Below are positions 933-61,085 of a stretch of DNA of 64,000 nucleotides, one piece after another. The stretch spans positions 61,459,760 to 61,523,759 of the forward strand of contig CM057005.1 in the NCBI GenBank assembly GCA_029891345.1. Reading direction: 5' to 3'. How positions within the stretch are numbered: position 1 is the stretch's first letter; every line of letters starts with the position of its first letter. The translations under genes and the position numbers were made by a program. Below the pieces are notes generated by a model. It saw only the letters and a list, made by a program, of their open reading frames with translations, did not search any database and was not told the origin of the DNA. The stretch comes from Dryococelus australis. Taxonomy: Eukaryota; Arthropoda; Insecta; Phasmatodea; Phasmatidae.

Positions 933-1852
933 CAAGATTACAGAAGATTATTTTAGGTTCCTTTGCCTGACTTCCTTTCCGGCAGTACGGTCCCAGAGTT
1001 AGGAAAAGGAGAGGAATGCCAAGATGAAATTTATTTAATTTACTACCTCAATTACCGGCAACCAAATACATTACTTTTTTTTCGGGAGAATGTCACAAGT
1101 GTCAGTTTAAACCATATCCACCTCCAGGAAGTACGTTTTAACACTAAATTAAACAAAACAAATTAAGTTTCGCAGAAAATAGGCTTGTGAAACAACAGGG
1201 TTGGCTGGCTCTCTTTGCGCATGTTTGTGTCGTCCTAACACTTTCCACAGTATCGCATACATTCTAATACACATGTATATGAATAATGAAAACCAAATAA
1301 ATTTAAAAAAAAAACGCATAATTGAGAAAATATTCTAAAATACGCCTAGCAACTTTTGGAACACGCGCATTAACTTTACTTAATGGCGACTGAAACTAAT
1401 ATATGCTAAGCATGTGACCCTCTGTTAAGCAGTTTGTAAAGAACTTCTGAGTTTGAAAATAATTTATACAAATATTTCATACAGACCAAAATGGAAACCC
1501 TTGTTCCAAAACTGGTGCTACAACCATAGCTAAATGAAGACATTAATGAGTCTGATAGAAATTAAATAACGAAATTACTAAGGTTAATTTGCTTAAAGAA
1601 CTAAATCCTGTGTTTATAGTATTGTAGACATATTAACGCACAGTTACATCATAACCAATGAATAAATAGCTTTTATATAATGTTTGAAAACAGTACATGC
1701 AAATTTGCATGGAAGTTACAGGAAATATTTTCTCTTAGAATTTTTGCAAATGCCATTCATGAATCATGCACCAGTCAATAATAATGGCAAAACAACGAAT
1801 GTCAAGTGATTTCTGATGACATTCCAGTAAGCCGACATAACCTCCGCGAAAC
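933..1852. other. No gene recognised
   Basis: AT-rich stretch up to the target site of the Tc1-like element. Nothing convincing is seen. Confidence 0.5.
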
Positions 1853-1854
1853 TA

Positions 1855-3171
1855 CACTAACGTTTGTGAAAAATGTTACACCAAGAAAGATAAATGTGAT
1901 TGAAAAGAACTTTATACCACATATCAGGTACCTGACAGTACACAATTGATAAGGATATTACATAACTGTATATAATCTCTGTCCTTGATAAGCCCCCATG
2001 TGCTGCAATCAGAGCCCCCAAACTTCGTGGCATGGAATCAAAGAGGACCTGAATGTGTTCCTGGCGAATCTCCCTGCCCGCTCTTTGTATGCGAGTCCAC
2101 AAAAAATGAACATTGGTGGCTGAAGGACCGAAACGAACAAGTCACCGACCAACCATATCCCAGGCATGTTCGGTGGTCAAAATGTCAGGCGAACGTGCAG
2201 GCCAGGGAAGCAGTGGTACCCGTCGTTCATTGAAGAAGGCCTGCACATTTCTCGCCGCATGTGGGCGGGCATTTTCCTGCTGAAATATGGCATGTGGAGT
2301 TGCCTGAAGGAGGGGCAATACTTTGGGCTCTAAAACTTCCCCGATGTAGTGGTTGCTGTTCAGATTACCCTCGATACGTAGGAGTCGAGATCGCATGTTG
2401 TACCCAATGGCGCTCCAAACCATCACACTTGGAGTTTGTCCGCTATGCCGCTCCACAATGCAGGCTGCCAGATCGCGGTCACCACGGCAGCGTCTGACAC
2501 GTATTGTAGGACAGGTTGAAGCGGGACTCGTCCAAAAACACTGCATTTTGCCTCTCAGCACGCCAACAACGGCGTTCACGTGCGCATTACAGTCTGAGGC
2601 GTTTGTGGTTTCTGGGCAATGGAAGCCGACGCAATGACATGCGTGCCACCAGTCCAGCCCGCAGCAAACTGGCGTCGAACCGTCGACGCAGAGAGCTCCA
2701 CAGACGTTGCAGTGCTCCAGTGTCGAGCCAACACTGTGGGCGAGACTGTACGGTCCGTCACGGCCATGCGGACAAGATGGCGGTCATCCCGTGCTGTGGT
2801 CACATTGCGTGGTCCAGTAGCCGCTCGTCACTGCGTGCGATTCTCTACTATCCACTGGTTCCACACACGCGTCACTGTAGCAGCGGCATGCCCTGGACGA
2901 GCTGAACTGTCGCGGTATGGCAAACCCGTTTCCCGGAGACCAATCATCCTTCCCCGGTCGAGCTCACGCACATGCTAAGGTGCCTTTGACGTCGACGAGT
3001 CACACTGGCGCTTGCTTTCACTTCGTTTGACGACTCGTCACTGATTGAGTTTGGCGTAACAATAACCTTTTCGGTCACACACGAGAGGATGATGCTGGGC
3101 CTACGTGTAGGCCATCTCTCTGCAATCGTAATCATTTTTTCTGGGTGTTGCAATTTTTACAAACAATAGTG
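1855..3171 (-). mobile_element. Full-length Tc1-like transposon relic
   Basis: The two ends form imperfect terminal inverted repeats of about 28 bp. The left end begins CACTAACGTTTGTG. The right end, read on the minus strand, begins CACTATTGTTTGTA. The left flank is TA, and the right flank reads CA, consistent with a mutated TA target duplication. The 1.3-kb length is typical of Tc1 elements. Inside lies a frameshifted transposase on the minus strand. The element is old and inactive. Confidence 0.85.
1987..2985 (-). pseudogene. Tc1-like DDE transposase, broken
   Basis: The intact enzyme would cut and rejoin the element ends in the nucleus. Pieces of one reading frame can be followed on the minus strand. 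The N-terminal helix-turn-helix part lies near 2985-2800 and a second DNA-binding segment at 2803-2576. The first catalytic block FLDESRF is near 2525-2545. The block VMVWSAIGYN and the rest of the core run from 2500 to 2142, and the C-terminal block (SMPRSLGALIAAHGG) is near 2000. The second catalytic aspartate of the QQDNARPH block is glutamate here (QQENARPH, about 2265-2290). The third catalytic residue, E of TEHAWD, is kept. Several frameshifts and stops make this a pseudogene. Family assignment is firm; the subfamily is not determined. Confidence 0.85.
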
Positions 3172-3500
3172 CACAGTTTCCCAAAATAAAACAAAAGGCA
3201 AACAATGTTTTCAGCCATTTAGAATATCTATTCCTGGAACTACGATATTTAATGCATAAATGAAAATAGTGACAAGGTCAATTTGAGGCCAGTTTACACG
3301 AAATACGACAAATAACTAGCAGCGTTTCTTGGCAATTTGGTGTAGCGAGATCCTCTTTACAAATAAAATTAACAAGTGTTTCAGAAATTGTACAAACTAA
3401 TGGCTATACAAATGCTTCTTTTAGTGCTATATCAGTTGTAAGACGTAAATGTGAGCTATGTGAAATGTTATAGAAAAAACGCGTTTAGAATAGTTAGGAT
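3172..3500. other. No gene recognised
   Basis: AT-rich spacer between the Tc1 relic and the duplicated segment. No feature is seen. Confidence 0.5.
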
Positions 3501-3817
3501 TTAATAATTGTAAAACTGTCTTTATTTTACCAGTATTGGAAATAATTAATCTGTCTATCTGAGCCATAGATAAATGTGTGCTTTACTGAAAACTTCATTG
3601 TATAAAACAACAACTGAGTCAACTCTAATTTGTATAGAAACAGAGTAAACTATAATATTAATTATGCTGCAAAAAATCCACTATAGCAACTATACAACTA
3701 TAACATACCGAGAAGTGAAATTTAATGCGGAATATGCACAATCTAATTGTGCCTTTAGCGCAGATTTACACAACATTTCCACTACACAAATTCACTTACG
3801 CCTATCATTAACTTTTG
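3501..3817. repeat. 317-bp duplicated segment, copy 1
   Basis: By eye this segment is identical to 10241-10557, with a constant offset of 6740 bases and no indel. It begins TTAATAATTGTAAAACTGTC and ends ATTAACTTTTG. This copy has no inverted-repeat arms around it, so it is likely the ancestral location. No coding potential is apparent. Confidence 0.9.
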
Positions 3818-5085
3818 TTATAAATACATATGTATTTTAAATGAGCCTATGTACCACGATGGGAGTTTCCTTGATAATTTTATAATATAAACTTTTGAAA
3901 AATCACCCCCATATATTTCAAACTTGATTGTTTCCAAAACATGTTATTTATCACAAACGTTTAAAACTTGCGTCAACATTAAAATAACTTATTTTTATTA
4001 AATCCAAATTTTACTCATATTTTTATATAAACTGTATTATTTCGTTTATAATTAATGTAAATAAATACGAGAAAATAAGTGCTTTGGTATTGCCTAGTAA
4101 GAAATAGTTCTTATGCAAATTATTATTACACTGAGTGCGCACGAATGCGGTGTCCATCTGGTGTAATTTTCTAGATTCGGTTAAACCTGTGCTAGTACTT
4201 TAGTCCATAAGTCCTAAAATCCAACTCGCGCTATTTTAGTGTGGTGCGCTTTTATGGCAAAAGTCCGCGATCAAAGTAATGCACCCATCGTTTAATAACC
4301 ATGAAATTAACACCCTCCCCCCCCCCCCCCCCCCCGTGAATCCCAGCATTCAAATCGCAAATGCCAAATTGGCTATTAAAAAAAAAAAATGTCGTGTAGT
4401 ATTATAACCGATGTACAAATTTTGCCAGAATTACTTACAAAACTAATTTACTGGAAAAAATATACTTGTTTTTCAATATATATCACACAAGCGCACACAA
4501 ATATTTTAGTGGTAAACGAAAATGCAAACGGGCCGTAGTCTTACTGTAGTGTTTCATTTCTTTTCGATTCTCGTCTTCCGTGTCGAATCTTCCATCAACA
4601 CGCTAGTACAACATACGAGACAGAGTCTTGTGTATGTTTTTTTTAGGGGCGGCAGACATTTATCAGCCTTTTCCAAGTTGTTTGACATATAGTGGCTTGA
4701 GACAAAACGTAAGAATCTATACACCTTCATAATTGCCAAAAACCACGCAACGATTTCAAATCAGAAGAGAGTAAACACAGATTATTGACTGCACCTTTGA
4801 GAATTTAAGATATATGGATCTTACGTTAAAACATACGTTGCGGTACTTTTTTTTTTGAAGTACTGAAATCAAAACCGCTAATTTTTCGAACGCTTGGGAT
4901 AATATGAATTATATTCTTGCTTTATCTACAAAAACGTTACTGTTGTTGTATTCTGGCTATTCCCTAAGTAGCCAGGCGACCTCTACGTTCATTCGTACAG
5001 GATGCTGATAAAAAAATTCAAATTACAGAAAATTTATTTATATTTTATTTCGTTCCCTTCGATCTATTCAACACCCTGCCTACCT
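3818..5085. other. Non-coding, with C-tract and short dispersed repeat
   Basis: AT-rich DNA with a run of about 20 C near 4315-4335 and an A-run near 4380. A ~100-bp segment near 4085-4195 recurs in inverted orientation at 40935-41040 (listed separately). No gene is recognised. Confidence 0.5.
4085..4195 (+). repeat. Dispersed repeat, copy 1
   Basis: Shares GAAATAGTTCTTAT and TGCGCACGAATGCGGTG, in order and spacing, with the minus strand of 40935-41040. It is an old interspersed repeat of unknown class. Confidence 0.6.
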
Positions 5086-5385
5086 TTTTGGTTGTTTTGA
5101 AACATAGGACATATTCCTATCTGCCACATCCTACAGGTACTGTACCTTGTGCAACAAGATCCTACTGTAAGTGGCATGTAGTAATCATGCCTGTTATTTA
5201 GGTAGCTTTCAGTGTGAGTAAATCAGGTTTTGGTTGTTTTGCAACATAGGACATATTCCTATCTGCCACATCCTACAGGTACTGTACCTTGTGCAACAAG
5301 ATCCTACTGTAAGTGGCATGTAGTAATCATGCCTGTTATTTAGGTAGCTTTCAGTGTGAGTAAACCAGGTTTTGGTTAATGTCTT
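5086..5385. repeat. Tandem duplication, 142-bp unit
   Basis: Two almost identical units (5086-5227 and 5228-5369) start with TTTTGGTTGTTTTG. They are followed at 5370 by the first bases of a third unit (TTTTGGTTAATG). The few differences, such as GAAACATAGG against GCAACATAGG, indicate a recent local duplication. Confidence 0.92.
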
Positions 5386-8300
5386 CTTTCTCATGACTTT
5401 TGTATAAATACGTACATCGTGAAACGAGAGACTGTTTTCGACATATAAAACTAGTTATTTACAGCATACATTATTCTCGGTCGTTTGCTCTTAAAACAGA
5501 GATAGAAATACTTGTCACATTGTCTACCTAAAACCTTCTCCTTAGAACTTTCGTGAAAGAAAGACAGGTCCTATTTTTATAAGCAGTTTCGATTCACTTA
5601 TGGTACATATACAAAACTTGGCAAATGCCAAATACAATTGTTCACATTATTTTGTTAATCAATTATGAGTAGTAAGCTTCATGTTATGAGTTTATATGCC
5701 CTCCAATCACGTACCTCTAAAATTACGTGTTAATTTACCACCATGAGCAGTACTGAATTATGGGCGAAGCATTTATAAAAATGTTAGGCCGCAGTGTTGG
5801 CGTTTATTTCCACCGGATAGAAATAATTGAGTGAAAATACGTGTAAAATGTTAAGTATACTTACATAACTCTCTGTGTTGTAGGGCTCAACAAATTTACA
5901 CCAAAAAACAACTAAGGAATATGCGAAAATAAATTGTTCTTTTCGTTACTGAACGAGATACCAAGCCTACAAAAGCATATCAAAAATAATTGTGGCACAG
6001 TTTTTTTAATTTAAAGTGCAAAAGAATTTACATATCACAAAATGTTGTTAGTTAGTGTAGGGCGGAATCTCTATGGAAAAATGAAGAATTATAAGTGTAG
6101 TCTGCATTTTAAATGTTATTTTCCTCTACTCCATGACTCAACATGTGCCTTGCCTACTTTGACAGGATTACACATTGCCTAAATTTGTGCCTCACTTAAG
6201 AACTAGAAATTACGTCCTTTGATCAGTATTTTCACTTCTTTACATGTTGATTATCTCCGTGTGCTGGATATTTATCACCTGTGTTTACAATACTGAACAA
6301 TACCAAGTAATGTCTTAAAATTGTTTCTGACAACAAAACAGTTTTTTTTTTAAATATACATTTTTACATATACTCACTTGCTAAATGTGTATTAATAAAC
6401 AATAAACTAATTGAGTTCAATACTGTTTCAAAAAAGTTTGAAAAATATAATTACGTTTAAAGATAAACCAGTTAGTATGTTAGTTTAGAATATTTTAGTT
6501 GACTACGCATTGCTCTGCACAGATACGTGAATTAATTTGACCACACTGGAACTTGTATTGCACGTTTCTAGTACTTGTAGCCATCTTAATGCAGCACAGA
6601 ATTTCTGCGAAATTACTTTATACACATACATAAAGTATGCTTTCGTTTTAACTTATCATGCACAGGGTTTCAAATACGAACGAATTATTTTTAATTCGGC
6701 GCATTCTTTTTATTGCCGTTGTTTTTCTGCAGTGGTCAATGTAGTCATTACATTAATATATTTAGCTAACACATTAGTAAAAAATCAGTAGTTAGGAATT
6801 ACATTATTTCTTTCGGAGTTTAAAATAATCAACTTCCCCCACTTTCCTATGCCTTTTGTTTCGACATATGCTACGATGAAAGAGAAATACTCTCAGGTGT
6901 TACAGCCTGTAAATGATGCTTCTTACAGCAACTAGGAAACTTGTGTCTATAAATTTGAATATTTTATGTCACTGCACATCATCACAGCAAAAACACAAAC
7001 CTTAAACAAACATAACAAGAAGGGGGCTCTAAAAGCGTATTTGCAACACAAACTTAATGGTTTAAGTATTACATGTTACTTAAGTACAAACGATAATGAG
7101 TCCGTAAATATTCTTTAAGTTTATAAATCTTGAGAAGAAAAATGGTTTCAAAATGGTTTATTTGATATGATACCATGTAAACTGAACTATCCGTTTTTCT
7201 TAAATCATTTGTTCAATACAAAATAATATTATTCAGTGGACAAACAAACGGGTTTTAAATGAAAATAGGGTCATAAAATTATCCCATAGTCAAATGCACT
7301 GTGTCCGTACATTTCTAGAGATTTCTTAGTTTTATTTGAAGCATTTTGTTGGAAAACTAAAAAAGCTAGTTGCACCGCTTAAGAACTTCTCTATTTTCCA
7401 GTCACATGTCATTCCTAATGAAATTATGCTTCTAAAACTAGGTAACTGTGGTACGTACTAAATGGAAAGGAAAAAAAATTGCGGAAAACCAAATAATTTC
7501 TACTTAAAGCCAAGTTTATTCTATAACGTTCGGAGTTTTGTTTGCTATATTTTTCTTTAAGGCCTGCACATGTGACATTTCGGTACAGTCATATCAGCAC
7601 AATCTAGTTGATGGAAATTACGAACATTGCCACAGAAAAAGTATTGTACTTTTGATTATAAATTTAGCTTTATAGCTAGATTCTCCTACTAATGGAAACA
7701 TGGTGAAATATCGTGTTGAAAATATTTATTGATTACGTCTTTATGACAAGGATAAAAGAAATCTGTTTAAAAAAAAAATCTAACACTTAAAATGAAGCGT
7801 GTCACTTCCAAGTAAATGTAAATTAACTGTTGCTATAATATTTGCTAGGGAAACAGTTTTTTTTGTCACCACATTGTTTGTCATTGTACTAATTTAATTA
7901 CTTATTTTGTTGTATTATATGTGAGACTAGAATAATTTATCGACAAATATTGTGTAAATATTTTTATTGCAGTTTGTTTTCTATATGTATTTTTTTGTGT
8001 AATCATCAGAGCCATGTAGGAATTATATAACTAAGTGATAAAACGCCTCTCGCAAATCTTCCGAAATATTACAAGACATCAATGCATAAACGTGAAAATA
8101 TTTGTAAAATTTTACTCAGGTACTAAAAATAAAAAATCGACAACTCAAAAATTCTCAGGCTATCCATGCATCGCAAACAGCATTAAAATGATGTAACGTA
8201 CTACCAATTGTGGAAATATTTATTTCATGATAAATAAGTACAGACTTCGATTTTTATTCAGAAATCATCAGGAATCGTCTGAAATTAGTTTATTAAGACT

Positions 8301-21589: not shown

Positions 21590-21829
21590 GGAAGGAGTGT
21601 AGAGATGTGGGCGGCTCTTAACATCGAGGTCTTGAGAGCCGATGAAGATGAAGCGAGGTGAGGATGGAGCAGCGCCGGAATGCAAGTGCGGGGGAAACGG
21701 GAGATCTCCGAGAAAGCCCGCCGACCAGCGTGATCGTCCGACATGTTTCCCACATGCGAATCGGGAATCGAGCTCGGTTAGTCTAGGTGGGAGGCGAGTA
21801 GTATACCATTACACCACCGCGGCCCCTTT
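21590..21829 (-). mobile_element. tRNA-derived SINE, copy A
   Basis: On the minus strand it starts GGGGCCGCGGTGGTGTAATG, with an A-box-like TGGTGTAATGG and a B-box-like GCTCGATTCCC. The shared body follows: CATGTGGGAA, CGGGCTTTCTCGG, CATTCCGGCGCTGC. It ends with the tail GAGCCGCCCACATCTC. Confidence 0.8.
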
Positions 21830-21862
21830 CTTAGACGGATACTCCTGTTGTTTTACCATGTA

Positions 21863-24800
21863 TAGGTCGATCACGATAAAGTGAGCACTTTAGAAAGTCC
21901 TGTTAAAGTTCTGCTTTTTTGCCTATTATGTATCCTTCCGTCACATGTAAACACACATTGTCATGTGACTGCCATGTGATTTCCACATGTTAATAAACTC
22001 AATGTTTACATTTAGGGACTGCTAAATGTAACATGTATATTATATATTAAACATATATGATGTATATAACACTATATATAATGTATATGTATGAATGTAG
22101 ATATATATAATGTAAAATAAACAATATATATAAAATACGTAACATATATGATTGTTCGGGTCATGTCAAAGCTCCGATAGACAAAAACTTTACACAACAA
22201 ACAATAGAAAAATAAGCTCACTAGCGATGAAGTCATGGAAACCGTGAAAATGCAAACATTAAACTTGGGTGGTAAACAAGGACCAACACGACACGTTAAA
22301 AAAGGACACACATTAGTTAAGCTGAAAAATAATTTGGAAGGGCAACCATATCCAGATTTTGAAATAATCTAGCACTACTGCACACCCAAGGTACAACACC
22401 ACTTGTCACACAAATTACCATACATGTAAAAAATGTACCGCAAACTTAACGTTTACCACAACTCACAGTTTTCTAAGTGTCTCATAGCTCTGTAACATGA
22501 CTAGTAAAACGTAAGCTCGAAAACATGGCTGTGTTTGGCTTCAGCTGACCAAAGTTAATTGCAATTTAGCGACCAGGAAAAAACCTACATCCTGCAGGCA
22601 TAAGGTAGCGGCGTAACGTAGCAGACTTGCGAAACGTATAAAGTAGACATAGCGAGGCCGTGCAAGGCCTTAAATAAAAAACGACAAATAAAATAATGAT
22701 TCACGAAGGGGAAAGGAAGAAGACGGGGAGGCAGAACAGCAAGGAAAGACAAGGGGATCTGAGCCGAGCAAAGAGTACACCACCGCACAGAAGTAGATGG
22801 TGCTAATAAACTTAACGTGACGGCGCTAACGTGGAATTATATAAAATATGTAAAATATAAGAAAAGTAAAATATATAAAATATATGCATGTATATGTACA
22901 TTTTAAGGATAGTTTTATATGCACCTTAATAAATGGAGATTAATATATTTCAACATAGGACTATTACGTATATGTAAAATAAAAATAATTTACACAAAAA
23001 TATTAACATCAACAAATGCATTTGTGTATATGTACATTTTTTTGACACCGTTACTCTGTGTTCGTACCCTTGTCAGACCCTCCAAAAAAAGAACTGAACA
23101 TTTATACTATGAATTGAAGTTGTAACAGAAGGGTATACCAGACAAGTAGCTGGCACCACCTTCATTTGTACAAAATAATTATAAAAATGGTGCATATTAT
23201 TTATAGCTAAGTGAAATGCCGATCCGGTGATGATGACCACATTTCCGGCGTCTCTTGTGGTCCAAATGGATGCGACATTTACTTTTTGTCAAACCCACAC
23301 AGACCTCAAGAAAACAATTTTACAGGTAGAGTGCATGGACTCTCATCATTGTTGTGGTTCTTTCATTGCAATGACTGTAGCAAAACTTAAAACTTAAATG
23401 AGAAAAGTATTTAAAGAAAATTACTATACTTAGAAAAATGGTTCATGCGTGCACACACAAAGCTGAAAGGAATGTCTTATTATTGATGTAAAACCAATAC
23501 ATATCCACAAATGACAGCAAAATGATAAAAGGACAAATTATAAAAGTAATAATGACATGTAAGTTACTTTTATCTAGTGTACGACCGACACACACAACAA
23601 AATTACATATTAATATACAACTTAATTTCTAAGATGTAAAACTATCATGACACTTATATTAACAAGATTCCAAACATGTTAACATGTTACAGTGACATTT
23701 ATGTTTACAAGTAACTCAATATACATGACCTTATCGTACCATGCAACACACATTTGAACATTGAGAACAAATTTTGCAAAAACTGTATATATTATGTAAA
23801 AAAATATCACTAATATTTGTTTTATACTAGACACTAAAAACCAAATAACATATCTTAAACAACATGACAAATACATAAACACATGTGGACTCCAATAACA
23901 AATAGTACCCAACCATAACATATATGTGTATACTACAAACAAGCAGCTCCTGCAATGCAAATACATTTACCTGGTCATACGAACCTTACAGCCACTGACA
24001 ATCCAGCACCTACTGTACAGTAGAATAGCCTGGCACCTCTATCAGTGCCACTGTCAATACTTCATCGTCACTGCCAAGATCATCTTCGTCAGTGGTGTCC
24101 AAATCCGGATCCAAGGAGATGATGAATGGAGATATGTCAGCATCTTCATACACTTCCTTCTCCCTGTCCTCTGCAATCAGCTTATCCACGTGGTCGACAT
24201 ACTTTACCCATCTGAAGGAAAGTTTGTACAAGGTACACTTAAAAGCTGTGTGTTTAACATGTGGCAACCGAAACACTCATTTTTTCAGGCTTAAAAAAAC
24301 TCCAAGCAATAACGTAAATCATTTAAAATAAACAACCAGACCATGCATATATGCTAAGTAGCATTGAAGTTTCTCAGAACTTGTGGAATTTCAGTTAGAG
24401 ACACGCAAGTAAGTTTAAGAGTGAAATGTTAAGATGTTAAGATATATATGAGAAGAATTAATATGGAATAAAAAATATAAATAATGAAAAAATAACTATA
24501 AGTAAAGACAAGAAACATGGTAAATCACACATCTATCGTACAAAGTCAGACCACAGCTTGAAGAATGTCTGATATGCAGCAATTGCAAACCACTACTTAA
24601 TACGGAAGTATACTGGAGCGATTTATACATATAGAAATGTAACATAACACACAATAAATACAAATAAAAGAACACACACATAAGGACACACAATTTACAC
24701 TGTTAACTAGCCATTATATACCAACACCTTGAAGTTCAGCTACGACACATAAACACATTGGATGTTTCAAACTACTGCAGGGACATAAGGAAATCACATG

Positions 24801-27800
24801 GTAAGGACCACTACACAGAACCTACAGGCACAGAAGAGGATGACACTGAACACACATGACACACAGGTATACCTCTCTGGGGTCACTAATTGGAGTGTTT
24901 CACGCCACATGTATGGCCGTGAAGAAAAACATACAGTACTGGAGGCAAATTCGCCTTTGCGACACCCAGCAATTCACCTTTCACTGCATGCGCATCAAAC
25001 GGAATGTTGTGCTGCTTCAACCACGCGGCGATGTCGTCTTACCTCCAGCTTCTGTTGGGAAATTTTTCAAGCTGAAATTATATAAAATAAACAATTCAGC
25101 AAATAATTCAAATTGCAATAATTTTGTTGAGTATGTCACTAGCTGAACAAATAGTTTGCCTTGTTTAAATGCAACTATGGTAAAAAGAATACTACGTATG
25201 TGCCGAACCACATACCTGGGTGCTGTGATACGATGCGTTGTCCATGACGATAATGCTGGGCTCCGGCAAGCTCTCCAAGAGCTGCTTCATCCACTTCTGG
25301 AAACTTTCCCCATTCATTTCACCATGGTAGTCACCCTTCTTCTGCCCTGAAACAAACAGCAACCAGGCTTCCGGCACGAAGCCATTACGCCTTCCAGCAT
25401 GAACAACAATGAACCACTTACCTTGGTCCACAAAGTGTATCTTTACTGTGTGAACTGTTTCGTCCTGCCAGGTCTTCTTAACAGTTCCTAAATATAACAA
25501 AGCTGCGATTCATTGTTGTTGGTATACATACAATATTATATTTAAATATGTAACTCACAGCAAATCTTTCGCAAAAATCCACGATTCATTAATGTACATG
25601 AAGTTTGCCCCATTCGTCTTTGCGTCGATGTACTTCCTAAAATAAAATAGCACTTTGGATGACGATGTATTCCTTCTCGAGCATGGCCCGTCGTCCGTTC
25701 ACAGTCGTCCACTCGAAGTCCATGTTCTTCAGGAGGTGGTAGAGTTTGGTTCTTCCGCCATAGAACTCAATCCCGCTGTCTCTTATCTCCTTCGGTAGCG
25801 TCGCCAAAGTGATGTGATGTCCGTGAGAGGTCAGATGCAAAATTATCTTAAAAATTATGTCACGAAGGTAGGACGTGTCTCCGTCGACAAATGTTTTCAT
25901 ATTACACGAAATGTTAACGGTTGGAAATTTGCAAATAACCAAGAAATGTCTCTTCAACTCAGCAATGTTATTTTAAACAAAGCTACTTAAAATACTAATA
26001 CTATTTATATTACAATCTTTGCGTGGAATACGAAAATATAAGTGGACACAGTGAGAAAAGTTTAATAATGTGAATGCATTATTGTCGCAGGCAAGAACAG
26101 AAAATAACTGAATAATAATTAGTGGTGTTTTAATATTTATATATACAGTTTTGGTAATGTCTGCTTGTCATACACTTACTCTCACCCACAGAAGCTCCCA
26201 ACGTGTATTGATTACACACATTGTGTACAATACAATAACACCATTTTGGTGTTGTGTTTTTACCAATTTTATTTTCAGTAATCATACTTTTTAACATGTG
26301 TGAAGTTGTTAAGTTTAATAAGCACATTTTCGTGGTTGTTTTTGAAGCAGATTCTGCAAACACTGTGTGTGGTTCAGTGCTTGTGGTTGCAGTGCTTTTT
26401 GCTAGTGTACTGTAAGCTGTTGGTAGGTGTTCCCAATATCATGTTTCCGCGGTCTGGAGTATGTAACAGAATTGGTTTACTATAGATGAAATGCTGTGTA
26501 AATGCAAAGGTTTCATTGTGAACGCCACAATCTACTAGCAATCAAAACTGGCATACACTACACTATGACACTACCAGTGCCGTTCTATCACGTGTCGAAA
26601 TGGTATACTTTTCAATGTGTTTGCATGAAGATGTTAAATGTTATACAGAATTACCAAAATAAATCTGTATGTGTCATATGGGATCATGGCATTTCTCTGA
26701 CCAAAGTACATGGAAATTATTAGAAATAATATTGTGTTATTTCTGTAGAAATTAGATATTTCTTGTTAGGGTTGTACTAACGTAGCCTCCCTTTACCATT
26801 GTTTTTTTACTGTAATAAGAATTATTTATAAAATACCAAATGAAACGTATTGCCCCCACACTTCTACATGTACTTACAATGAATATTTTGTAGTGAAATT
26901 ATAAAGTCAGTCACAGTGTGTGTATTTGTATTTTCGGAACGTAATGTGTTAATAGAGGAACTAAATTATCGTCTGAGTGTAGATATTATAAATTAAATAT
27001 ACATAAACTTCACATTATTGTCTTTGTTGCCCATACCTTCACGATACACCCTATAAATGGTGCGGCGAATGGCTGCAACGGTGAAGTCAACACTCTCGAA
27101 AGACTTTCCCTCTTGTGGCCTCTTCTTTCTCGTCTTATCCGGAGTGGTCACATCTTCAATATCTCTCTTGTAGTACCTTAAAATGCTTTACACAGCAGTG
27201 ACATTAAAATCGACCTTATTCGTATTTCACAATATAACAGACTAGAGCACTTATTGTGGGACTGGTACAGTTAAGGCCGGGCCACAATTGCTATAAGTAT
27301 ATCACTAACACAACACAGTGATATACATACGAGTTAAACGGCTTGTTTTCAGTTATAGTGGCTACAACTGTGCATAGTGATAAGAACTTGGTTTAACTTT
27401 CCTTGTTACTATAGCTGTGCGTCAATAAACAGCTAATCAGAAGCTCCGACACTTATACTATGTTATAAATTGAAAAACTTATTTACAAATCAAGAAAGTG
27501 TGTATTTTGACTTCATTCCTCGGGAAAACATTTTCTTTTGTTTGTTTCTAAATAATCACAACCACAGAAGTTTTGTAACGCTTTTAGGTAACGTTTATAG
27601 TAAAAATTAAATTTAAATAATTTATCATTTTAAAAATGTCTCAGATCAATTGAAAATATTTATTTTTGAACAAACCCACTACCAACTCTATGTACTGATC
27701 TTAATTTCTTCGGTACAAATGTGCTTATCGCTATAACTGTGAATGTGTTAGGTATGTCAATTGTAGTCCAGCCCTTATTGAAAGCTAGCTCATACAGATT

Positions 27801-29551
27801 CTTTAGAAATACTTAATTTAACACATACACTGTGTAATGTAATCTAACGTTTACTAAACATGCATTCGGAAGTAAACAGGAGCCGTGTAATTTAGAGTTA
27901 CATTAAATTTAAATAACTACAATATTTTTGCTGCCAAAGTGGCAGATATGCCACATGCCACAAACAATTATGCCTACTCAAGAACGCATACTATCTTCGT
28001 TGATATTTCTCAAAAGGTAGCAAGTTGTCTTGTCGAACATCAATTTCGAAATTTGAAAATGGAAATATTATATAACTGTTGACAATCAACTGTAAAAATG
28101 TTCTAATTCTTATTACGGCAAGCATTTCCAAATAAAACAGTTACACTTGCATCAAGAAATAATGTCGGGAACAAGCACAGCTATAGGTCTATAGTTAACA
28201 AAACCAGCTTCAAGATGTTATAGTTTATAGGATGTTGGTACATCTTTGGTGTAGCATAAACTGTGACTTTTATGTTATGTTAACAATAGTAAAACTTAAC
28301 ACAGTAACTTGGGATGAATAACTACATGAACACAAGTTTGGGGTTAGGCCTGCATTATAAAATAACAGCGATTTCAAAACGTGTCAAAGTAATGTATAAT
28401 TATTGACAGGCACATTTGCACTTGTTAACAAGGCAGGTTTAAGAAAGGTTACATGGCTGGGCCTAAATAGGTACGTATAGACGTATTTGAGGTTACCTCT
28501 ACATTGCAAAACAACACAGTGTTATAAAAACGTGTAAAATTAACGTATAATTATTTATGGAGAAATTTGCACTTATTATCAAGACAGCTTTAAAACAACG
28601 GTTAAACAGATGGGCGTAGGTACATAAGTACACACAACTTTTTATATTATTATTCAAACTTAGGATATAACATGTACTAAGCAAACTCACATGGATATAT
28701 TAATGTCGCGTTTCTGCTGTCGTTCATTTACTTTCTTTACTGTTATAATATCACGTTTCCAACTGTCGATTCCTACTAGTTCTTTTTCAACGATTTAGTT
28801 CAATGACGTACTGGGGATACGCGTGGAAAACACGTCGTAAAAACACATGTATACTTACCTCCTGACAGTTGCAGTTGAAATTTTCATCATTTCTGCAACT
28901 CGTTCGATGACCTTGCACGGCTTCATCTCACCTCCACGAATTAACGAATAAATACTTTCGGCGAGATTTATAATGTCTTCCTGACGCTGACTATTAGTAC
29001 GTAGTTTGCTGGAAATCACGACTTCACACAAGATCACTGCTACACAATTAAACACTATACGACCTATAATAAAACAATGATGACAGCAGATAAGTTGAAA
29101 AATAAATGAGAAATATCAAAACACAACAATTTTCAACATCCACATTTGTAGTTTGCCTCGCAACCGCTCCACACAAGCAAAGCCAAGCAACAAGCATGAA
29201 GGAGCAACAACAATGGACCGTTGGTTTTGACCGTTGCGCCGGCCAAGTGACACAATATAATTATGAGTTAGAGTAAATACACTATCTTTAGGCCAATAAT
29301 TACTTTAAACTGTATAAAATAAACTTCAAACAACTTAAGTAGCCATGAATTTAAACATTGACCTTGTAATACCACGTTATTTCGCAGAACTACGTTTCAC
29401 ATTTCACTGCCAACATAACTGGGTGTGTTTATCCCCAGCCTGTGTGGAGACACACATGGTTATACATACGCTGTTGCGGACAGGGTTTTTTTTTTTTTTC
29501 TTTTTTTTTAAGGTTGATTTTTAGAGTGCTCACTTTAACGTGAATGGCCTT
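21863..29551 (-). mobile_element. 7.7-kb Tc1/mariner-superfamily transposon, intron-bearing
   Basis: The left terminus (TAGGTCGATCACGATAAAG then TGAGCACTTT) matches the right terminus read on the minus strand (AAGGCCATTCACGTTAAAG then TGAGCACTCT). TA dinucleotides flank both ends (21861-21862 and 29552-29553). The interior holds a minus-strand transposase gene spread over several exons from about 29064 to 24010. About 2.1 kb of AT-rich non-coding DNA lies between its stop codon and the left terminus. This is several times longer than typical Tc1/mariner elements, mainly because of the introns. Two MITEs in the window carry the same termini. Confidence 0.85.
24010..29064 (-). pseudogene. Multi-exon DDE transposase gene, inactivated
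   Basis: Role: transposase of the surrounding element. Exons inferred from splice signals and protein resemblance are as follows. About 29064-28859: helix-turn-helix region ending STATVRR, donor GTAAGT. 27176-27037: Lys/Arg-rich linker, TVAAIRRTIYRVYRE, donor GTATGG. About 25880-25650: GRTKLYHLLKNMDFEW. 25636-25559: MYINESWIFAK, donor GTGAGT. 25487-25216: VHAGRRNGF, VIVMDNASYHSTQ-like core, donor GTATGT. 25071-24935: LKQHNIPFDAHAVKGELL, donor GTATGT. 24211-24010: acidic C-terminus, stop TAG. Decay is clear. The first catalytic Asp codon reads AAT (INESW, 25588-25590), a TAA interrupts the sixth exon (25039-25041), and the 25559/25487 junction is out of phase. Only about 17 intron bases remain before 25636, and the exon with the third catalytic residue was not found. 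The N-terminus and start codon are unresolved. Confidence 0.75.
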
Positions 29552-29553
29552 TA

Positions 29554-30446
29554 ACCACGAAGCCCCAATACAATAAGGAATGTTAAATATGTTGCGATTT
29601 ATTTTCACTCTCAGACTTTCCGGCGGGGGTCGGAAATCATTATTTTATTTGAGAACAATTCTGATTGGCTAGACTCATCGAATTTATTGCCTCTGATTGT
29701 TTTTTTTTATTGAAATGTTTACGGTACACGATGCAATATGCACGTCCGACAGCGTTCATGTCCAGATTTATTTTCAATGTATTACATTTCTCCATTTCCA
29801 GTTACTGATTGTCATTGCGGAGTTTTGTGGAATCAGAAATTACTGTTTTATTTGAGCACGATTTTGATTCGCCGAGCGCGTCAAATGCCAATAACAGGCC
29901 CGATATACAACAATTTAAATGGATAATGGATCCACTCAACTTTTACAGAGAAACATAGCGGCGCTAGTGGGGTTTCTGTGACGACAATCTTACGTCTATT
30001 GTTTTTAAGTTCTGAATTGGTTGTTTAAGAATATTGTAAAAGACTTGAGCTAGCACAGGACATTTTCCGGGTTAGAATTTTCAGTTATTAGTTATAAATA
30101 TTTTATCTAGCCTATTATTCAACTTTAAGACATGTGGTAAAATTTAAAGAATCAGTTTTAAAGAACACTTAATGACATTACACGATCCAGTCAATATAAA
30201 ATTTCAGGAGAATTCGTTTAACAAAAATTAGTTGATGAAAGCAAATTAAAGTATTCAAATATGACTGTAAATGTATTCATCTGTGCGAATTCGTAGATAT
30301 GTTCAAAGGACCACTGAAATATTTTTCTTGATATATTTCCTTCCTTTTGTATCAAATTGTATTAGGTAAAAGATGAGAATAAATTAATATAAAAAATTTT
30401 GTGTTAGTTAATTGTTGCGTAAATATGCGTTAGTACGTGACTGTGA
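29554..30446. other. No gene recognised
   Basis: AT-rich DNA between the large transposon and a SINE. Only short open frames without motifs are present. Confidence 0.5.
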
Positions 30447-30693
30447 GTGAAGATATTTGGACGGCTCTTAACAACGAGGTCTTGAGAGCCGATGTGGGTG
30501 ATTGAGGTGAGTATGGAGCAGCGCCGGAATGAAAGGGCGGGGGAAACGGGAGATCCCCAAGAAAACTCGCCGACCAACGTCATCGTCCGACACGAATCCC
30601 ACATGCGAAAATCTGGAGTGACCCGGCCCGGGAATTGAACCTGGATTGCCTTGGAGGGAGGCGAGCAGGCTAACCACTCAGACACCGTGGCCA
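30447..30693 (-). mobile_element. tRNA-derived SINE, copy B
   Basis: The best-preserved copy. The minus strand starts GTGGCCACGGTGTCTGAGTG, continuing GTTAGCC as the A-box region. The B box GGTTCAATTCC is perfect. The common body and tail (GGCTCTCAAGACCTCGTTGT, TAAGAGCCGTCC) follow. The head resembles a class II (Ser/Leu-type) tRNA. Confidence 0.87.
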
Positions 30694-32338: not shown

Positions 32339-33292
32339 CACACACATTTAGTAATGCTGAATCAATTTTATACATATACACTCGTTCACCTATTATGTTT
32401 GCGTAGTTTCTAACAATGGAAGTTTTAAAAATATGTCGTACATATTACCACAGTATTCTTGGCGGTTCTAACTGTTATTTGAAAAACAGCCAAATTGTGT
32501 GATTTCCATTTTTTTTTTTTGCTAAATAATTGCATCGTGACGTATAACAGTCTGGGCGCGTCATATTGTTTATGTAATATCGTCATGCTACCGGCTCCGG
32601 CAAAATACTATGCTTTCTACACATGCTTAGGTTTCGTTTGGGCCAAGGATAAATAATGAAAATCGGAGCGCCAAGATTAAGGCTTCGGCCGTAGCTTAAC
32701 TAAGGCCTTAGCTGGCGTTATAACGTTCTGTAATACTGATAAGGCCTGATGGGTATGACTTGAGAGCTGTACCAAAACCCTTATAAAAAAGTTCTGGAAT
32801 GCCGGCCTTAAAGTAGTGTTTCTCACTCGGTTTGCGCTGTCGCCTACGAGATGAGTGGCAAAGGGGGGGCTTCCAAACCACGGACGTAGCACTATACACT
32901 ATAGGCTGTTTTAACAATTTCTGGTTGTTTAAATTATTTCTTACGCTTTATGATTTTTTTTTTTTTAACGCCTCAGTGTGTACGAATTAGCGGATTTATA
33001 AAATGTTTACTTTTCTAATAATTTTACAGTTTCACTTGACCGACGCATGAATAAAGTGGTGAGGCCTATGGCAGTGTTAATTTTACATAATGTGGAAGAA
33101 CACACAACGTTCATACAAGCTGATCTTGAGCAAGGCTTTCAGAACTGTTCATTTTACCGTGCACAGCCTACAGCTGCAGGCGGGATACCAGGGGTGGGGT
33201 GGGGGGGGGGGGGGTCCGCAGCATCTGTGCGATGTCGTCCATCTCCGACGGGGTCCGACGGTACCCGGGACCAAGCAAGAGCGGAGCGTTGT
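32339..33292. other. No gene recognised, G-tract
   Basis: Overlapping short frames between 32677 and 33316 have no recognisable motif. A G-run occurs near 33196-33213. The patch at 32660-32900 is less AT-rich but unassigned. Confidence 0.4.
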
Positions 33293-33294
33293 TA

Positions 33295-33534
33295 TAGGCT
33301 GTCCACGATAAAGTGAGCACTTTTGAAAGCCCTCTCGTTAGTAATAATAGATAATAAATATATTTAATTTCAGATTTAGACATTAACTTCCGAGTGCGGT
33401 AGAATATACACACGGTGCTTATTACTTATATGCCAACATGTATTTAAAAAATGTGGTTAATAGATTTAAAAAAATGGCTGAAAAGAAGAAGTAACTAGGG
33501 CGTAAAAGGTGCTCACTTTACCGTGAACGGCGTG
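33295..33534. mobile_element. 240-bp MITE of the 7.7-kb element family
   Basis: The left end TAGGCTGTCCACGATAAAG and right end (minus strand) CACGCCGTTCACGGTAAAG share the TIR of the 21,863-29,551 element, including TGAGCAC. TA flanks both sides (33293-33294 and 33535-33536). It encodes nothing, so mobilisation would need a transposase supplied in trans. Confidence 0.85.
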
Positions 33535-33536
33535 TA

Positions 33537-37745: not shown

Positions 37746-38374
37746 GAAAGCAGGCAAGAATTTTTTTTATTTGGCTTTCATGTCTATCTTGTTAAACGCA
37801 AAAAAAGAAAAATAACTGCGTACGCTTGAGAGATTTACCGATTTCAACCACGTGTTGGATTAATCCCGCGTTTATTCGTAGCAGGTGCCATCCGATGCAT
37901 CCGAGGAAAAGAAGTTACTTTTCCCACGCTCGAAAGCAAAACAATTCTTTATCGACGTCCAGCCGCCCCGCGACTTTCCTCCTCAGTCGGATATCGTACC
38001 TGTCAGAAGTTCGCTGGGAGGAGCAAACACCCTGGCCATCAGTGTGTTTTCCCCTCCGTTTCGGTTCGCTCGCGTTTCTTCCCTACCGGCGCTTTCCCGC
38101 GAGTTTACCTTCCTGCCTGGTCCTCGTTACCTCTTCCCAGCTTGCACTCTCGCGAACTCCTGTGAAGAGGCGACGTGGCGTGCGAGATGATCTGAAAGAG
38201 TAGCTGGTTGACGGAAACTTTCAACCCGGGTGTGAGAGGTCTCTAAACTGACCGTTGAAATTTTTCACTGATCAAAAATAATTCATTCAGATAAACTGAT
38301 TACGTTTACATTCAATCAGTTATATCGCATTCGTAGGAGCCGACAATGGGAAGTGGCTGGAAACAAGTTAAGTG
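37746..38374. other. GC-richer island, unassigned
   Basis: From about 37850 to 38230 the base composition rises and CpG is frequent, with two overlapping frames of about 100-125 residues on the plus strand. Neither shows a known domain. It could be a first exon, a promoter region or an LTR-like fragment. I cannot choose. Confidence 0.3.
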
Positions 38375-38632
38375 GATAGATTTGGGTGGCTCTTAAATTC
38401 GAGGTCTTGGAGAGCCGATGGGGGTGAAGCGATCCGAGTACTGAGCAGAACCGGAATGCCTTGGTTGGGGGGGAGGGAGAGGGAATCCTCGAGAAAACAC
38501 TCCGAATAGCGGCATTGTCCGGCATGATTCCCACATGTGAAAATTCGGGAGCGACCCCGCCGGAAATCGAACCCGGTTTGCCTAAGGGGGGGGGGGGACG
38601 AGTAGTCTAGCCACTCTACCACCGTGGCCCCC
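38375..38632 (-). mobile_element. tRNA-derived SINE, copy C
   Basis: The minus strand starts GGGGGCCACGGTGGTAGAGT with a G/C-run insertion in the head (38587-38596). The B box is GGTTCGATTTCC, followed by the shared body and the tail GGCTCTCCAAGACCTCGAAT. Confidence 0.85.
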
Positions 38633-41325: not shown

Positions 41326-42367
41326 ATGCCCCGAGGGGGCATTCGGCGAGCCTTTGACCAGCTGGATGAGTTTGAGAGAAGCCACATCGCCGACCTCGGA
41401 GAGGATTTTTGGACGCGTCAGCCCATTGCTCACAACTTGAACCGTTCTGCCTACACTGTGAGTCGGTGTTGGGCGCATTGTGAACAGGAGGGTACACACT
41501 TTTGGCGAGAAGGCTCGGGTCGACTTGTGGCGGACCTTCAGCAGGGAGGATGGTTTAATCGTGCGAAAGGCTGTAAGCACTTTACGGGCGTCGCTGCACT
41601 CCATCTGTGTTCATATCACGGTAGCTGTAGATATGTCTATGCCCACCAGTACCATATCCAGGTAGCTATAGGCTGTTCACGGTAAAATGAGCACTTTTGA
41701 AAGTCCTGCTTAAGATCTACTTGTATACACGTTGTGTATTCTTCCACCTTATATAAAATTAACATTACCGTGGGCCTCGTCACTTTATTCATGCGTCGAT
41801 CAATTGAAGCTGAATTTATAAAAAAAGTAAATATTTAACAAATCTACTCTTTTTTACACTGCGATGCATAAAAAAATTAGAAAACGAAAGGAATGATTTT
41901 AGTTGATACAAATGGTTTCCTAATACTTTTAATTTGACGTTGAGGTGTGGAACTATTTTCCATCCATCGCTACCAACTTTATTGGGTGGATGTCACTCAG
42001 TGCGCCTGTTAAAATATATGCAGCAAGGGAAGTGACTTTTTTCTAGGGTTGATTTCAAAAGTGCTCGTAAACAGCCTTTGGCGAAGCGGGATATGTTGTC
42101 GATTACAGTCTACCATTATTACGACCTGACCATCGCCTCGCAGGTGTGACCTTCTACAGGGAACGGGCAGCAAGGCAGCTTGCATATTGGCGACGAGTGG
42201 TGTTCAGCTATGAATAACGGTTCTCTCTGGATACAGACGACTGCCGGATTCGAGTCTGGCGACGCCCTAGCCAGTGCCGTGATCCACACTTAAATGTCGA
42301 GCGCCACACCGCCCCAGCGAGAGGTGTCGTGGTGTGGGGTGCAATCTCCTATAGATTCCCGCACTCC
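41326..42367 (+). pseudogene. Tc1-like transposase relic split by a MITE
   Basis: The left half (41326-41666) encodes the N-terminal DNA-binding region: MPRGGIRRAFDQLDEFERSH, later REDGLIVRKAV in a shifted frame. The right half (42081-42367) continues with GEAGYVVDYSLPLLRPDHRL and then VRVWRRP-like core sequence up to GVVVWGAISYR. The two halves join at the MITE insertion. The first catalytic block reads FSYE followed by TAA where the family has FSDES, so both the Asp and the next residue are lost. The 3' third, with the second and third catalytic residues, is missing after about 42367. TIRs were not found. Confidence 0.8.
41669..42078. mobile_element. 410-bp MITE of the 7.7-kb element family
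   Basis: The left end TAGGCTGTTCACGGTAAAAT shares the TIR and the next ~60 bases with the left end of the element at 21863 (GAAAGTCCTG and a TGTAT-CTTCC string in register). The right end on the minus strand, AAGGCTGTTTACGAGCAC, has lost a few bases. Left flank is TA, right flank CA (mutated TA). It interrupts the Tc1-like relic and is therefore younger than that insertion. Confidence 0.85.
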
Positions 42368-59710: not shown

Positions 59711-60947
59711 TTAATTTACCACATTCGTTTTCTAGAAGAAAAGAGGAATTTTATGTATACTTCACAATCATGTCAGTTGTAATACAAAGCTATAATTTGT
59801 AATGTTACAAAGAAATGCTTTGCAGATTTTACATGAAAACACTTTGTAGTTTTACAAAGGATTTCCTTGGCAACTGGGTTTCCAAGGATTTTCCTTGTAA
59901 AAAGTACATACAATTTTTTTAGCGTGTGCAGTTCTGGAAGTGGCACAAGACAAATTAATGAGTCCAATTAAATGTATTTTTCTTACATTAGTCCTTAGAG
60001 CTTTAATGAATCTACACTTCGATAACTCGCCCACAGTATCACACGAGCTACAAAATCATCATCATGAGTCAGTATTCATCGTTCTTTAAAACCGTAAGTC
60101 CTTTTCTCCTTCCTGTCATTGTCCAATTCACCCTGAGCACTAAATTACTGAAACAATTTTCCTACCTGAATTAACTACAAAACAGCTTGAAGTAAAGATG
60201 AGTTGTGTTGATATGTCAATAGACTCCACATTCGTATGAAACGCTTTGACGTTTAGATTGGCAGAGTGAAGATACCTCAGGAAGTTTGACGGCCTCTAGC
60301 CCCTGGTGTAGTCTTCATCCGCTCAACCCACGCGATTTAATATTATTTCGTTAGACTGTAGCGCCTTCGAAAGTTTGTCTCATTACCGTCCCTTTCCCCG
60401 CGACCTTGTGATCTACCGCTGGGTGGATCGTGGCAACGCGATTTGTCTGATCGGACGGAAAATTGGCGTGACCGCGGAACCGTTAAGGGGGGGGGGGGAG
60501 GTGAACAAAATTAGGCAAGAAGTTCACGTCTCGATCGCGGAAGAAAATTCCCCCTCAAACCGCGATTACAGTTCCAAAGGGAAAGCTGGTGAACCGACGT
60601 TAAGTCTTTGTCGGCATTCTTTAAAGAAAAATCACACAATGGTATGATTTAATTGCAGATATTAGTGAAACTATGTAGGTTGAAGAGAGAAACGTAAGGT
60701 AAACGTCGGTTTATTACTGTAGGAAAATAAGACTTTATAGTTGACAGCGTAGCGCCACGCCGTACAACAAACCAACTGTGTGTAAAGAATCCGCCAAATT
60801 TGTGGCTTAACTTAAAAATGGTTTTTTGCTGAAATTTTTTTATAGTTTGTATTTGTCATTATTTATTTTAATAAAAACTATACGTTTCTAAAAGTTTAAT
60901 GTGCCTAAAATCTAGAATTAAATTTGTCTGATATTAGTATTTTAAGC
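59711..60947. other. No gene recognised
   Basis: A less AT-rich patch at 60300-60620 includes a 13-base G-run (60487-60499). The 90-residue frame across it shows no known motif. Confidence 0.4.
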
Positions 60948-61085
60948 GGCTTAGAACATCGGGGTCTTGACAGTCGATGAGGGTGACGAGGGCTGAATAT
61001 GGAGCAACGCCGGAATGCAAGGGCGGGGGAAAACAGGACGACACAAAAAAAAACCGCCAAGTAATGTCATCTTTCGGCCCGCACT
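60948..61085 (-). mobile_element. tRNA-derived SINE, copy D (truncated)
   Basis: Contains the body and tail of the family (GCAACGCCGGAATGCAAGGG, GGTCTTGACAGTCGATGAGG) but lacks the tRNA head. Confidence 0.75.

Follow-up and report, generated by a model that had tools for sequence, protein, structure and literature searches.

Tc1-like elements with spliceosomal introns, termed TLEWI, were reportedly described in molluscs by Puzakov et al. in 2020. In a related account, some Tc1/mariner elements (TLEWI) are given 3–5 introns, again in molluscs (PMC10379824). The Sailor elements were surveyed by Shi et al. (2021, PMC8533490) using TBLASTN with 2-kb flanks, and are described there as having a DD82E catalytic spacing (range 78–111), mostly TATA duplications, and lengths of 1.38–6.98 kb overall and 1.8–4.4 kb for full-length arthropod elements; in the text of that survey, the word intron was found a single time, within a cited paper's title. 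A literature search for Sailor elements with introns, with most subscription papers and Repbase outside its scope, returned these two publications (PMC8533490 and PMC10379824).

Here, we analyze an element lying in a 64,000-nucleotide stretch of the Dryococelus australis genome, referred to throughout as the window, in which positions 21863–29551 are occupied by a single complete insertion, flanked by TA, that belongs to a repeat family of this 3.4-Gb genome (3.415 Gb, 646 contigs). The family is like Sailor (PMC8533490) in the 81 residues separating its second catalytic aspartate (D2) from the glutamate, which is within the Sailor range, in the similar motifs FIDET, VMDNA and HCHYNAIEL, in terminal inverted repeats (TIRs) of a few tens of bp, and in its host, insects being rich in Sailor; it is unlike Sailor in its TA target (theirs being mostly TATA), its six introns and its length of 7–8 kb. 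With TLEWI, as summarized in PMC10379824, it shares membership in the IS630-Tc1-mariner group and a transposase gene interrupted by introns, but those elements are Tc1-like, have 3–5 introns and reside in molluscs, whereas here we find six introns and a DD81E spacing in an insect genome. The kind of transposon and the existence of intron-bearing Tc1-like elements are thus already known, and what is unusual here is the seven-exon split in a Sailor-like element. The initial annotation had proposed a poorly described, intron-bearing lineage, and while a multi-copy, intron-bearing lineage is indeed present, intron-bearing Tc1-like elements had already been recorded in molluscs (PMC10379824). Our reading, which we hold with high confidence, is that the window carries a decayed copy of a family of cut-and-paste, intron-split, Sailor-like DNA transposons.

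Results and Discussion

Element Ends and Target Site

The insertion is delimited by the following repeats (window coordinates):

21861–21896, plus strand: left terminal inverted repeat, with the flanking TA at 21861–21862
29518–29553, minus strand: right terminal inverted repeat, with the flanking TA at 29552–29553

The two arms of 36 nt are 81% complementary and form the longest inverted pair among those listed for the 8.8-kb region. The best ungapped 36-nt match between the end zones scores 29/36, against no more than 22 in either control, namely 60 single-base shuffles or 60 random zone pairs from the window. Both the matching TIRs and the TA flanks noted in the initial annotation are borne out.

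As that annotation had suggested, we searched the assembly with both termini, scoring the best 40 of 2855 first-look candidates for the left-end query (the first 601 bases; all 40 matched, the window's own end included) and the best 40 of 1671 for the right-end query (601 bases), where first-look candidates are not to be equated with confirmed copies. For the comparison of ends and structure, 20 loci were fetched around left-end matches. The left end is kept in all of these, its start lying at most 3 bases from that of the element, and in 18 of the 20 the right end is clear and matches in orientation at a distance of 3.8–8.0 kb, including L041, the right-end match of which ends 4 nt early; in L036 the right-end match ends 9 nt before the element end, and L030 has a rearranged interior and an inverted right end. 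As the 20 loci were picked by their left end, exon-to-end distances provide an independent check, and five exon matches (C5:118980122, C1:274848462, C11:58320514, C2:364879485 and C11:68223222) lie about 3.5–4.2 kb from a listed left or right end, independent of the choice by left end. Since both ends recur together across the fetched loci, we reject an origin of the two ends from separate insertions; the lineage is multi-copy, with family matches located on contigs C1–C17 plus the small contig C263, and in full copies the ends enclose the exons, consistent with one element of ~7.7 kb as first annotated.

Target sites were counted in 18 elements, namely the window and 17 loci, leaving out L030, L036 and L041 (right end unclear). 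TA adjoins the left end in 16 of the 18 and the right end in 16 of the 18; the left end reads TATA in 14 and the right end TAAA in 16, such that only TA is common to both. As the base beyond TA differs between the ends, the duplication comprises TA alone, and the TATA target that most Sailor elements have was rejected. In addition, L027 is inserted in a shorter relative of the family, and its flanks, when joined with one TA, align unbroken across that point to uninterrupted relatives located in L030, L038 and L043. This empty site, which is paralogous rather than allelic, is the sole one found among 18 tried. Insertion of the element would thus duplicate TA, in line with the single TA at this one paralogous site. 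The grounds for refutation that had been named in advance were termini missing around the exons of other copies, or empty sites assigning the two ends to different insertions; neither applies to what was examined, as the exons of the full copies lie between the two ends and the sole paralogous empty site corresponds to a single insertion.

A Seven-Exon Transposase Gene

Seven copies (the window, L025, L026, L027, L031, L041 and L030) were aligned on the minus strand. Aligning full copies had been put forward as a check on the intron-rich transposase first annotated, and the outcome agrees with it: the majority of the seven copies has seven exons, each of the six junctions showing GT...AG, and six predicted introns of ~1716, 1226, 81, 144, 130 and 658 bp. 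With one unstable homopolymer tract fixed at its L025/L031 length, the majority reads as an unbroken 457-residue transposase over the seven exons, with catalytic residues D179, D269 and E351, i.e., 89 residues between the two aspartates and 81 between D2 and E. A further intron halfway through exon 3, as might be read from the first list of open reading frames, was rejected, as the tract is in frame in L025 and L031. The majority protein matches the IS630 model with an E-value of 6.6e-20 (71.8 bits, under the curated cut-off of 100) and Pfam DDE_3 with an E-value of 7.6e-14 (over its cut-off); a structure search for close relatives returned one irrelevant match only (E 0.76). In the window, the exons are arranged as follows:

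28859–29019, minus strand: exon 1, N-terminal, helix-turn-helix-like; start codon GTG here; donor GTAAGT
27037–27176, minus strand: exon 2
25566–25821, minus strand: exon 3; first catalytic Asp codon at 25588–25590 is AAT (Asn); frameshift in a homopolymer tract
25216–25487, minus strand: exon 4, second catalytic Asp within MDNASYHS; donor GTATGT
24935–25071, minus strand: exon 5, with an in-frame stop TAA at 25039–25041 in the window copy
24873–24909, minus strand: exon 6 remnant, ~270 bp missing at 24909/24910
24010–24211, minus strand: exon 7, C-terminal part and stop codon

Exon 1 is recognized in all 20 fetched loci, with ATG as its start codon in 15. In the window, the acceptor preceding exon 3 (intron 2) and the donor following it (intron 3) are both mutated, such that the exons and splice sites of the initial annotation are present, but one donor and one acceptor are missing from this copy. 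The exon-6 deletion has taken the intron-5 acceptor together with the catalytic glutamate (NAIELVW). Judged from its sequence, the window copy is dead, its transposase no longer being encodable after loss of the start, the first Asp, the Glu, two splice sites and the frame. Of the 40 candidates scored, two read across the deletion junction, the window and C13:58913339, while the other listed matches break there. With only these two of the 40 carrying the junction, an undeleted exon 6 represents the family's normal state, and we rejected the idea that the disabled form in the window had been widely amplified as a subfamily.

No intact copy is present among the seven aligned. The window and L041 lack the intron-2 acceptor, the window also the intron-3 donor, L030 both intron-4 sites, L025 the intron-4 acceptor, and L026 the intron-5 acceptor. 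The copies lie 3.8–7.2% (K2P) from their majority, distances that are biased low because each copy contributes to that majority. In Periplaneta americana, DNA elements, mainly Tc1-Mariner and hAT, are commoner near 5% Kimura divergence (PMC12774602).

Classification and Relatives

The same high confidence, being a figure for our explanation as a whole, covers the placement of this family in or beside the Sailor (DD82E) branch of the IS630-Tc1-mariner group, with a catalytic spacing of DD81E. The D2–E spacing is 81 residues in the main family and in the intronless same-genome relative L046, and 82 in L047 as well as L052; it is 34 in a set of four bacterial proteins (termed IS630-like) and in a Sleeping Beauty piece, while our spacing script returned no D2–E value for L045 and L048. 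The majority motifs FIFIDET, IIVMDNA and HCHYNAIEL are similar, though not identical, to the Sailor motifs I/VVYLDET, VIIMDNA and HCELNPIEL (PMC8533490), and 81 residues fall within the Sailor range of DD78–111E; the 4-bp TATA duplication of the majority of Sailor elements, though not of all, is replaced here by TA.

The label Tc1/mariner-type, under which the element was first annotated, therefore gives way to Sailor-like DD81E, since there are 81 residues between D2 and E rather than the classical 34–41. We also considered a classical Tc1/mariner element (DD34–41) enlarged by insertions between the pieces of its exons, with which the TA target and the TIRs would be compatible; however, the spacing of 81 residues argues against it, as does a second family with identical borders and with exons under selection, and we regard this scenario as very unlikely. 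It is further disfavored by a 10-protein tree, comprising neither the published Sailor set nor any Tc1 or mariner row, which joins the majority protein to the DD81–82E proteins at 100/100, apart from the four DD34E IS630-like rows. Within this tree, the two intron-bearing families group together (100/99) and then with three intronless relatives (84/86); these are joined by L052 at 100/100, although L052 is a long branch and may be misplaced.

The intronless relatives from the same genome, L046, L047 and L045, resemble the family in being 39%, 35–37% and 29% identical to it, respectively (29–39% over most of the transposase), and in the D2–E spacings of L046 and L047; they differ from it in being without introns at the positions covered, and L047 measures ~1.67 kb between 39-nt inverted repeats. 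L047 (806–2479) is itself a compact, intronless, Sailor-like element, with inverted repeats of 39 nt at 90%, 1.67 kb from end to end, and GTAC at both ends. In a scan of prokaryote contigs yielding 23 loci, L052 matches residues 27–406 at 31% and the other 22 match partially, at 21–30%; L052 is Deltaproteobacteria MAG contig PDZT01000125.1, and its transposase has DD82E spacing. Intron gain in the intron-bearing branch would be a simpler reading than loss elsewhere.

Evidence That the Split Gene Was Used

Given the defects of the window copy, we also assessed whether the exon pieces could be chance-assembled fragments of broken elements rather than parts of a spliced gene. This copy is indeed rich in defects, and splicing is deduced from sequence; however, the seven-copy majority forms one open frame with GT...AG at every junction, and the block borders recur both in the listed high-identity matches and in a diverged family, which makes such an assembly extremely unlikely.

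The recurrence within the family emerges from a search of the genome with a joined-protein query of 328 residues (122 of 5271 candidates scored, 282 matches), where all counts refer to the matches listed. Those of at least 66% identity match as separate exon blocks (~1–91, 82–177 and 221–298), apart from seven that cross a short intron, each with internal stops (e.g., C3:177681007, C9:103767556 and C1:155852459); by contrast, 25 listed matches, all of 33–41% identity and nearly all with some stops, are continuous across at least three junctions. Exon-4 matches start at the same border down to ~45–57% identity, and may represent further intron-bearing families. A retrocopied, intron-free member was considered as direct proof of splicing, and no such processed copy is present among the matches listed (122 of 5271 candidates scored).

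In the second family (L048 and L049), the matches begin and end at the exon borders of the main family wherever these are visible. L048 is 68% identical to the main family in the alignment and retains some splice dinucleotides while having lost others, and the splice sites of L049 were subject to a partial check only. Between the majority and L048, over 344 codons, there are 77/49/160 differences at codon positions 1/2/3, corresponding to a dN of 0.20 and a dS of 1.63, the latter being near saturation; any neutral decay that L048 underwent once inserted could only increase dN. From the codon pattern, the exons evolved under purifying selection as a joined protein. Taken together, the borders common to the second family and the purifying selection on the exons indicate that the split gene was used, from which we infer splicing of the six introns.

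Other Copies and Short Relatives

The fullest copies are L025 (7628 bp), L031 (7892 bp) and L027 (8013 bp), with L026 at 6940 bp. In 11 of the 20 fetched loci (L028, L029, L032, L033, L035, L036, L039, L040, L042, L043 and L044), an internal deletion with common breakpoints has removed exons 2–7 and kept exon 1 and both ends, giving an exon-1-only form of 3.7–4.4 kb that is common among the fetched loci. On the window element, the outer limits of the commonest deletion form are:

23568–27367, no strand assigned: commonest deletion form, element positions 1708 to 5507

These copies also bear on whether the family could be a host gene that arose by domestication and is no longer mobile, which would fit the purifying selection but is scarcely credible in view of the numerous copies that occur at unrelated places with TIRs and flanking TA, the lack of an intact copy among the seven aligned, and the insertion of L027 into a shorter relative.

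The copy at C13:58913339 (L018) is a sibling of the window element, on the same contig and 2.6 Mb away; the sibling region (L018, L050 and L051) spans C13:58910000–58918600. The two are 96.4% identical inside, over 3.27 kb, but only ~82% identical at their ends, and their flanks differ (L050, L051). The sibling has the window's Asn, stop and donor change, but is without the string carrying the window's acceptor change. Ectopic exchange or gene conversion of the inner part between the two copies is possible.

Short non-autonomous relatives are present in the window at 41667–42066, 32931–33170 and 33293–33536, with the outer ~105 bp like the left end of the big element; the TIRs of the relative at 33293–33536 match at 23/28. 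Across 99 kb outside the big elements, the 400-bp relative has 16 matches of at least 150 bp, distributed over 9 of the 20 loci. A separate dispersed repeat adjoins the element at ~21594–21826, and occurs also at 30445–30609, 38371–38631 and 60946–61032 and in several of the fetched loci. The end of this flanking short repeat looks tRNA-derived by eye, but ARAGORN found no tRNA gene in the window, and a tRNA gene was rejected.

Conclusions

In the intron-split, Sailor-like family that we favor, an intact member would carry one gene, transcribed from right to left, with its six introns being spliced out to give a transposase of ~457 residues that has a helix-turn-helix-like region at its N-terminus and a D-D-E catalytic domain encoded across exons 3, 4 and 6. 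This enzyme would bind the inverted repeats, excise the element and insert it at TA, duplicating the TA, while shorter copies with the same ends, including the 3.7–4.4-kb exon-1-only form, would presumably be mobilized by the enzyme of other copies. As a more speculative extension, which we consider rather unlikely, a Sailor-like branch would have gained six spliceosomal introns after it diverged from the intronless relatives and kept them through the divergence of at least two families, splicing would restrict the timing of transposase production, and the exon-1-only form could yield a DNA-binding fragment in competition for the ends.

For transposon annotation, our observations mean that transposase scans assuming one open frame and short flanks could miss or truncate intron-split elements. 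The family also explains part of the short repeats in this genome that bear the same ends. Finally, the presence of intron-split elements and intronless relatives in one genome provides a natural setting in which to test how a mobile gene acquires introns, and whether splicing acts as a restraint on it.
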